Made by a program: the position numbers and the translations under genes. From assembly GCA_030680605.1 (NCBI GenBank), contig JAUXUQ010000002.1, forward strand, positions 124,001-188,000: a stretch of DNA of 64,000 nt, given 5' to 3'. This DNA is from Gammaproteobacteria bacterium (GTDB lineage: Bacteria; Pseudomonadota; Gammaproteobacteria; SURF-13). How positions within the stretch are numbered: position 1 is the stretch's first letter; every line of letters starts with the position of its first letter. The notes under the pieces were generated by a model. The model ran no database searches and was not told the DNA's origin. It saw nothing but the letters and a program-made list of their open reading frames with translations. Positions 10,120-14,433 of the stretch are shown here, piece after piece.

Positions 10120-10195
10120 TGGAGCTGGCGAGAGGAGTCGAACCCCCGACCGGCTGATTACAAATCAGCTGCTCTACCAACTGAGCTACGCCAGC
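10120..10195 (-). tRNA. tRNA-Thr (anticodon TGT)
   Basis: On the minus strand a 76-nt cloverleaf reads GCTGGCG acceptor, D arm GCTC..GAGC, anticodon stem GCTGA/TCAGC with loop TTTGTAA (anticodon TGT, reads ACA), T arm with TTCGACT loop, CGCCAGC and an encoded TCCA end. The discriminator base is T. The T stem contains two G-T pairs. The gene is convergent with metZ. Its upstream side (higher coordinates) carries tandem copies of its own first 20 or so bases, annotated separately. Confidence 0.95.
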
Positions 10196-10442
10196 ATTAC
10201 AAAAACTTCAGTGGTGCCATCCCTGGCTGGGCATCACCTTTAATTGGATCACCTGCTCAGCCATCCGTGGCTGAGCGTTCGCTTGCTTCGCAATCTCACC
10301 CAACTGAGCTACGCCAGCATTACAAGAACTTCAGTGGTGCCATCCTTAGCTAGGCATCACCTTTTATTGGGCCACCTGCTCAGCCATCCGTGTCTGAGTG
10401 TTCGCTTGTTTCACAAGCTCACCCAGCTGAGCCTACGCCAGC
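10196..10442 (-). repeat. Two 123/124-bp tandem repeats carrying the tRNA-Thr 5' end
   Basis: Two units, 10196-10318 and 10319-10442, lie immediately upstream of tRNA-Thr. On the minus strand each begins with a copy of the tRNA 5' end (GCTGGCGTAGCTCAGTTGGG, with small changes in the far unit) and finishes with a conserved tail ending TTGTAAT, which abuts the next GCTGGCG. Inside each unit are potential hairpins, the best being GCTCAGCCA-CGGA-TGGCTGAGC in the near unit. The two units are clearly homologous but differ at many positions. They are not complete tRNAs, since no anticodon or T arm follows. They appear to be tRNA-derived leader repeats. Confidence 0.85.
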
Positions 10443-10477
10443 ATAGGAGGTACGATCTGTGCGGAAACGGCAGGCTC

Positions 10478-10506
10478 ATTGTAGGTAATTCGGGTAACGA
10501 AGGCAA
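10478..10506 (-). promoter_or_regulatory. Candidate sigma-70 promoter for the repeat-tRNA-Thr transcript
   Basis: On the minus strand TTGCCT (10501-10506) and TACAAT (10478-10483) are separated by exactly 17 nt. Transcription would start near 10470, about 28 nt before the first repeat unit, and read through both units into tRNA-Thr. It lies just after the stop codon of the small gene downstream of coaX. The match is by eye only. Confidence 0.55.
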
Positions 10507-13932: not shown

Positions 13933-14008
13933 TGGTGGGCCGTGTAGGGGTCGAACCTACGACCTACTGATTAAGAGTCAGCTGCTCTACCAACTGAGCT
14001 AACGGCCC
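13933..14008 (-). tRNA. tRNA-Lys (anticodon CTT)
   Basis: A 76-nt cloverleaf on the minus strand with acceptor GGGCCGT, anticodon loop CTCTTAA (CTT, reads AAG), T loop TTCGACC and encoded ACCA. It is the last gene of a four-tRNA cluster read Pro-Arg-His-Lys. An inverted repeat CCACGCC/GGCGTGG at 13901-13922 lies just downstream and may end the transcript, though no T-run follows it. Confidence 0.96.
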
Positions 14009-14103
14009 GGTACTAAACTGGTTTGCTGTAATGCCTGGTCTGGTAGTCACGTTGTCGATTTGGCTGTATGTGCCTGTTTCACCGGCCAGCGCTGGTTATA
14101 TTA

Positions 14104-14180
14104 TGGGGTGAGCGATGGGGCTCGAACCCACGACCACCGGAATCACAATCCGGGGCTCTACCAACTGAGCTACGCCCACC
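14104..14180 (-). tRNA. tRNA-His (anticodon GTG)
   Basis: A 77-nt cloverleaf on the minus strand. The anticodon loop is TTGTGAT (GTG), and the gene encodes both the extra G at -1 and the C73 discriminator that identify tRNA-His, followed by CCA. The acceptor stem GTGGGCG/CGCTCAC has one G-T pair. It lies between tRNA-Arg and tRNA-Lys. Confidence 0.96.
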
Positions 14181-14217
14181 ATAACTGGTCGCTATTGTAC
14201 TACATTCCTGCATAGTC

Positions 14218-14294
14218 TGGTGCGCCCGGCAGGACTCGAACCTGCTACCCCCGGCTTAGAAGGCCGGTGCTCTATCCGGATGAGCTACGGGCGC
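14218..14294 (-). tRNA. tRNA-Arg (anticodon TCT)
   Basis: A 77-nt cloverleaf on the minus strand with acceptor GCGCCCG, anticodon stem CCGGC/GCCGG and loop CTTCTAA (TCT, reads AGA), T loop TTCGAGT, and encoded ACCA. It is second in the Pro-Arg-His-Lys cluster. Confidence 0.96.
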
Positions 14295-14356
14295 GGGCAG
14301 TGGGTTGCGCGGGTGCCCTTGGGGTGTCCCGCAGGCCTGTTCCGTTCCCGGCGAAA

Positions 14357-14433
<77 letters not shown>

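Follow-up and report, generated by a model that had tools for sequence, protein, structure and literature searches.

A dispersed two-hairpin element with CsrA-type loops in the leader of a gammaproteobacterial tRNA-Thr gene

Tandem repeats adjacent to a tRNA gene are known from tyrT of Escherichia coli (rtT RNA), in which each repeat exceeds 100 bp and holds about 19 nt of the tRNA end. Among short dispersed repeats, the REP/RAYT system consists of a GTAG-tagged palindrome of 20-40 bp with a RAYT transposase. In Pseudomonas putida, RsmA, RsmE and RsmI bind repeat-derived intergenic RNA at ISPpu8 sites in vivo (PMC7937890). It has been shown that RrA, RrB and RrF of the E. coli rRNA operons bind CsrA in vitro; they are part of a stable-RNA primary transcript, and their level follows growth rate (PMC8144298). 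The high-affinity site of CsrA/RsmE is an ANGGAX hexaloop placed directly on a stem (PMC4005645; PMC7652899).

In this study, a stretch of 64,000 nt from a gammaproteobacterial genome (assembly GCA_030680605.1, contig JAUXUQ010000002.1, positions 124,001 to 188,000; hereafter the window) was analyzed. Directly upstream of tRNA-Thr, an earlier note made from the sequence had described two tandem units of 123 and 124 bp; both were recovered (Table 1), and no other tandem repeat in the window comes near the pair in strength (TRF score 436). The claim that each unit starts with the 5' end of the tRNA is exact for the proximal unit and approximate for the distal one. The units are, however, not built from the tRNA alone: about 19 nt of each are tRNA, and the remainder belongs to a dispersed element that recurs at many tRNAs and at genes of other kinds. 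Each unit has its own P1 and P2 hairpins, as had been proposed, although the distal P2 is weak. The promoter placed upstream of both units is the sole match in the tRNA-Thr region (0.2 expected), and its core, ATTGCCTT...CCTACAATG, is invariant in all five aligned family genomes, two of which (G001 and G005) lack the insertion. Because the promoter is conserved and lies about 36 nt from tRNA-Thr in G001, which has no units, the window units sit between promoter and tRNA. This comparative evidence supports the suggested co-transcription, and the units very probably lie within the transcribed leader of tRNA-Thr. The insert of about 104 nt is too small to hold a gene, and the features of a tRNA-integrated island (an integrase gene, an att site at the tRNA) were not found in it.

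Table 1. Features of the tRNA-Thr region, in window coordinates.
Feature	Position	Strand	Basis
tRNA-Thr(UGU), CCA encoded	10120..10195	-	ARAGORN; Rfam RF00005, 68.6 bits
Proximal unit, 123 nt: tRNA 5' copy, element and tail	10196..10318	-	direct repeat, TRF
Distal unit, 124 nt, 89% identical to the proximal unit	10319..10442	-	direct repeat
Copy of tRNA-Thr nt 1-19 (to the D-loop GG) in the proximal unit, 19/19 identical	10300..10318	-	sequence comparison
Distal-unit copy of the tRNA-Thr 5' end, with one base inserted and one substituted	10423..10442	-	sequence comparison
Element core, proximal	10215..10296	-	covariance model R1, 85.3 bits
Element core, distal	10338..10419	-	covariance model R1, 72.2 bits
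Hairpin P1, proximal unit, loop A-C-GGA-U (CsrA-type hexaloop)	10255..10276	-	fold -15.4 kcal/mol, z -4.9; covariation
Hairpin P2, proximal unit, GCCA-GGGA-TGGC, loop A-G-GGA-U	10216..10227	-	covariation, fold
Hairpin P1, distal unit, loop A-C-GGA-U, one stem mismatch	10378..10399	-	covariance model, fold
Hairpin P2, distal unit, GCT-A-A-GGA-T-GGC, weak: not formed alone in the fold	10339..10350	-	covariance model, fold
Promoter of sigma-70 type, TTGCCT-17-TACAAT, upstream of both units	10478..10506	-	pattern match; conserved in five genomes

The units are copies of an undescribed dispersed element of about 100 nt with a core of about 82 nt. When relatives were searched with the leader, the unit turned up in front of many other tRNA genes, and in every case it carried the 5' end of the tRNA concerned. 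A covariance model (R1) was built from 13 aligned cores of 81-84 nt. Among the six family genomes it gave 30 matches in G003, 18 each in G004 and G005, seven each in the window genome (G000) and G001, and one in G002. The covariance search proposed in the earlier note thus recovered the unit as a dispersed element: in the class sample, matches were detected in 24 of 369 gammaproteobacterial genomes, representing 20 of 272 genera (E<=1e-7, strict filters), and in a wider sample of the phylum they were confined to Gammaproteobacteria. A degenerate pattern scan gave matches in the metagenome-assembled genomes (MAGs) SURF_13 and FK_Sedi_A_Bin.151, in a Natronospirales MAG and in a MAG labelled Acidobacteria. 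The median pairwise identity among copies was 63%. No Rfam family matched the element at gathering or relaxed thresholds, no viral contig with the pattern of tRNA 5' end plus element was found, and a search of open-licence PMC papers, literal motif search included, returned no description of it. In a Pseudomonas-like genome, a tandem array of at least five copies was observed downstream of xerD (L156, G413:C10). Two units in tandem are what a simple local duplication of the tRNA-Thr 5' end, by chance and with no dispersed element, would give; the same element occurs with the 5' ends of other tRNAs, beside 17 other tRNA species and across 20 genera. The dispersed copies refute such a duplication, to which we assign a negligible probability.

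Ninety-six copies were classified by position: 37 run in sense and stop 18-23 nt short of a tRNA, 15 are tandem upstream units, three are antisense copies at the 3' end of tRNA-Pro, and the other 41 are found elsewhere. The tRNA species number 18: Phe, His, Met, Thr (two), Arg (four), Ser (two), Val, Ala, Lys, Leu, Gly, Pro and one intron-bearing tRNA. At L022 501-742 (G003:C9), the tRNA that bears the element is split by a group I intron (RF00028, 82.6 bits). At tRNA genes the element is placed between the promoter and the tRNA, and in 30 of the 37 tRNA-adjacent units 15 nt or more of the same tRNA's 5' end are present. The copy extends to the D-loop G18-G19, after which the element begins with GTGAGC, and P2 lies 36-40 nt from this GG in every case that could be anchored on it. 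The direct repeat measures 28-29 nt at the His and Leu sites of G005 and the Thr site of G003, and 19 nt at most others; the antisense copies at tRNA-Pro carry the reverse complement of the tRNA 3' end instead. The suggestion that the units are remnants of element insertion is borne out by these 18 tRNA species, by further copies at gene ends and by an empty tRNA-Thr site in relatives of the same genus; the site is empty in G001, G002 and G005. The absence of units from the closest relatives, which the earlier note would have counted against itself, does not mark them as an artefact and shows an insertion polymorphism. The Pro-Arg-His-Lys tRNA cluster of the window (13933-14433) has no element, and the cluster of G005 is filled before Arg and His, giving an empty/filled pair.

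In 28 units, identity between the copy and its own tRNA was about 95% over 19 nt, 55% over the next five bases, 40% over the following five and about 32%, near background, beyond; the profile was anchored on the longest shared substring, and part of the contrast is ascertainment. Such a profile is what would be expected if the leader acted in cis, with the duplicated acceptor strand and D-arm competing for the 3' strand of the tRNA and an alternative pre-tRNA fold tuning RNase P cleavage. We consider this quite improbable. Seven of the 37 tRNA-adjacent units retain little of the tRNA copy, elements at protein genes keep the hairpins with no tRNA piece, the predicted fold of the window leader leaves the real acceptor stem paired, and the ascertainment weakens the profile itself. 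Candidate causes for the high identity of the 19-nt copy beside a decayed upstream repeat are constraint, conversion, and duplication starting at the mature 5' end. The earlier idea of a decoy for RNase P or tRNA-binding proteins has no support: 41 of the 96 copies are not beside a tRNA, yet they keep the same hairpins.

Two other repeats were noticed. A second repeat, CCCTCATCCCCA...CTCCC..GGGAGAAGGG...GCGAGCCGAGGCGCTG, is present in the same tRNA leaders, upstream of the units in L022, L025 and L027, and in L030 (G004:C34), where 15 nt of tRNA-Thr flank it in turn. Downstream of tRNA-Glu(TTC) in the window genome (L043, G000:C2 near 285063), another repeat, which contains a GCCATGGATGGC hairpin, finishes with a copy of the final ~19 nt of that tRNA (AATCCCCTTGGGGACGCCA); this is a 3'-end case resembling tyrT.

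The copies away from tRNAs that have recognisable neighbours are all in sense: pstB-phoU, actA-actB-like, xerD-yajQ, secY-rpsM and rimK. At pstB, xerD, moaD, flhA and the actA-like gene, the G-TGA of the element completes a terminal glycine codon (GGG-TGA) and supplies the stop, which leaves the protein end unchanged; moaD and flhA were named from their C-termini and neighbours, not from a Pfam match. At rimK the element begins at the stop codon. In the window genome a copy lies between ftsW and murG (L123, G000:C10 ~251215-251279). The first ~28 nt of the murG coding sequence occur on either side of it, differing mostly at synonymous positions, and the start of murG is overlapped (ATGA) by a short ORF that precedes it. 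Apart from murG, no target repeat was seen at gene ends. Taken with the presence or absence of copies between relatives, the tandem copies, the antisense copies at tRNA-Pro and the 28-29 nt direct repeats at the His, Leu and Thr sites, the unchanged protein ends are what would be expected of a short mobile repeat, MITE- or REP-like, that is purely selfish and serves no host function. Its hairpins would be read, as DNA or as RNA, by a recombination enzyme acting in trans, and tRNAs and terminal glycine codons would be harmless GG targets. The uniform sense orientation at gene ends speaks against this explanation, as do some insertions that different genera have in common, such as those at tRNA-Met (89%) and tRNA-Arg(CCT) (90%). 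We regard it as rather unlikely, and as the main rival nonetheless; it is compatible with function, in that a mobile module may be kept for its CsrA sites.

The hairpins themselves point to CsrA/RsmA. Both keep C-A-N-G-G-A-N-G on covarying stems: cells with changes on both sides of the stem numbered 210, compared with 54 +/- 5.5 in shuffles, and the covariation score of 0.39 fell below 0.07 when the stem partners were slid. The positions of the closing C-G, the A and the GGA are conserved at 98-100% in both hairpins, against a median identity of 63% between copies; for the two hairpins, GGA is present in 89/94 and 93/94 loops and the A in 92/93 and 91/93. Since this A is conserved while the opposite base varies, it is kept as a loop base. 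Position by position, the element hairpins agree with the rule of ANGGAX on a stem, and there are two CsrA-type loops per unit and four in the window leader. A conserved unpaired A, free N positions and a conserved GGA, matching CsrA recognition in both hairpins, would not be expected of a selfish repeat; neither would an excess of G-U over A-C among stem mismatches (17 vs 7), a modest sign that the sense RNA is the target of selection. In the fold of the proximal unit, the copied acceptor strand pairs with the linker; on inspection, other units did not conserve this pairing.

Based on these sequence comparisons, we propose with a probability of roughly 0.6 that the units are tandem copies of a mobile, transcribed, sense-oriented module with two CsrA/RsmA-type hairpins each, acting at tRNAs as a CsrA sponge. 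A copy of the element would insert after the D-loop GG, duplicating the tRNA 5' end and leaving the tRNA intact; in the window the unit would then have been duplicated in tandem. Judging from the promoter position, transcription would yield a leader of ~275 nt that holds the units, and RNase P would free it; the freed leader, with four conserved ANGGAX loops, would be expected to bind CsrA dimers. At tRNA operons it would serve as a sponge that rises and falls with tRNA synthesis. Where the module stands between co-directional genes, it would turn their mRNA into a target of CsrA. Several observations count against the proposed role of CsrA. The three antisense copies at tRNA-Pro would put no GGA loops into the tRNA transcript, the fold of the tRNA-Thr leader as a whole is only a little more stable than that of shuffled sequence (z -1.6), the distal P2 is weak, and no transposase was identified. 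CsrA binding also does not explain why the 19-nt tRNA copy is ~95% identical while the adjacent bases have decayed.

The csrA gene was identified in the window genome (G000:C2:189176-189331, 85 bits), in 23 of 26 element-bearing genomes and in 20 of the 21 good ones; the good genome with no csrA is G002, which bears a single weak element match. The gene is common in Gammaproteobacteria, so the co-occurrence of csrA and element is weak evidence. No match to CsrB or RsmZ (RF00018, RF00166) above the cut-off was found in the six family genomes, which may still have diverged sRNAs. At four loci (G003:C32, G004:C22, G005:C110 and G016:C104) the element-bearing leaders of tRNA-Ser(GCT)/tRNA-Arg come right after csrA, which places element copies within ~1 kb downstream of it. 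A broader proposal can be offered only tentatively: tRNA leaders in part of the Gammaproteobacteria may be growth-rate-coupled CsrA sponges. The mobile module would have spread CsrA sites into many tRNA transcripts, copying on insertion the 5' end of each tRNA that it entered, and the RNA freed during tRNA processing by RNase P would titrate CsrA in place of CsrB/RsmZ. If the sponge reading is true, a global post-transcriptional regulator would be tied to stable-RNA synthesis by a route undescribed in the literature searched, and regulatory RNA sites would have spread through genomes as a portable module. The element also poses the question of which insertion process duplicates 19-28 nt of tRNA genes, and, belonging to no Rfam family, it could mark Csr regulons in uncultured bacteria.

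Among known systems, REP/BIME and MITE repeats resemble the element in being short, dispersed, intergenic hairpin repeats, in places tandem; at ~82 nt plus a tail, it is longer than REPs, has a fixed sense orientation at gene ends and duplicates a tRNA end. Terminal inverted repeats, a feature of MITEs, were absent within the units, where the P1 palindromes are the sole inverted pair. A long target duplication of IS1202 type was considered and rejected: the published case has 5-bp duplications with 24-26-bp terminal inverted repeats, which the element lacks. The P. putida sequences, likened to the element by description, are tied to the flanks of ISPpu8. The R178/R200 repeats of Pseudomonas fluorescens were considered as a further candidate relative. 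The repeats of tyrT were aptly called a mirror image in the earlier note, as an analogy and not a homology: there the 3' end is repeated, downstream of one tRNA, and here the 5' end, upstream of 18 tRNA species. The nearest functional analogue found is RrA/RrB/RrF, which are located at the 3' end of rRNA operons with terminators on either side, are not dispersed, hold no copy of a tRNA end and are unrelated to the element in sequence. With the sponge RNAs of the Csr/Rsm systems (CsrB/CsrC, RsmX/Y/Z) the element shares several GGA motifs in hairpin loops (PMC4005645; PMC7652899), but it is not a free-standing sRNA gene and occurs as many dispersed copies in tRNA leaders and between genes.
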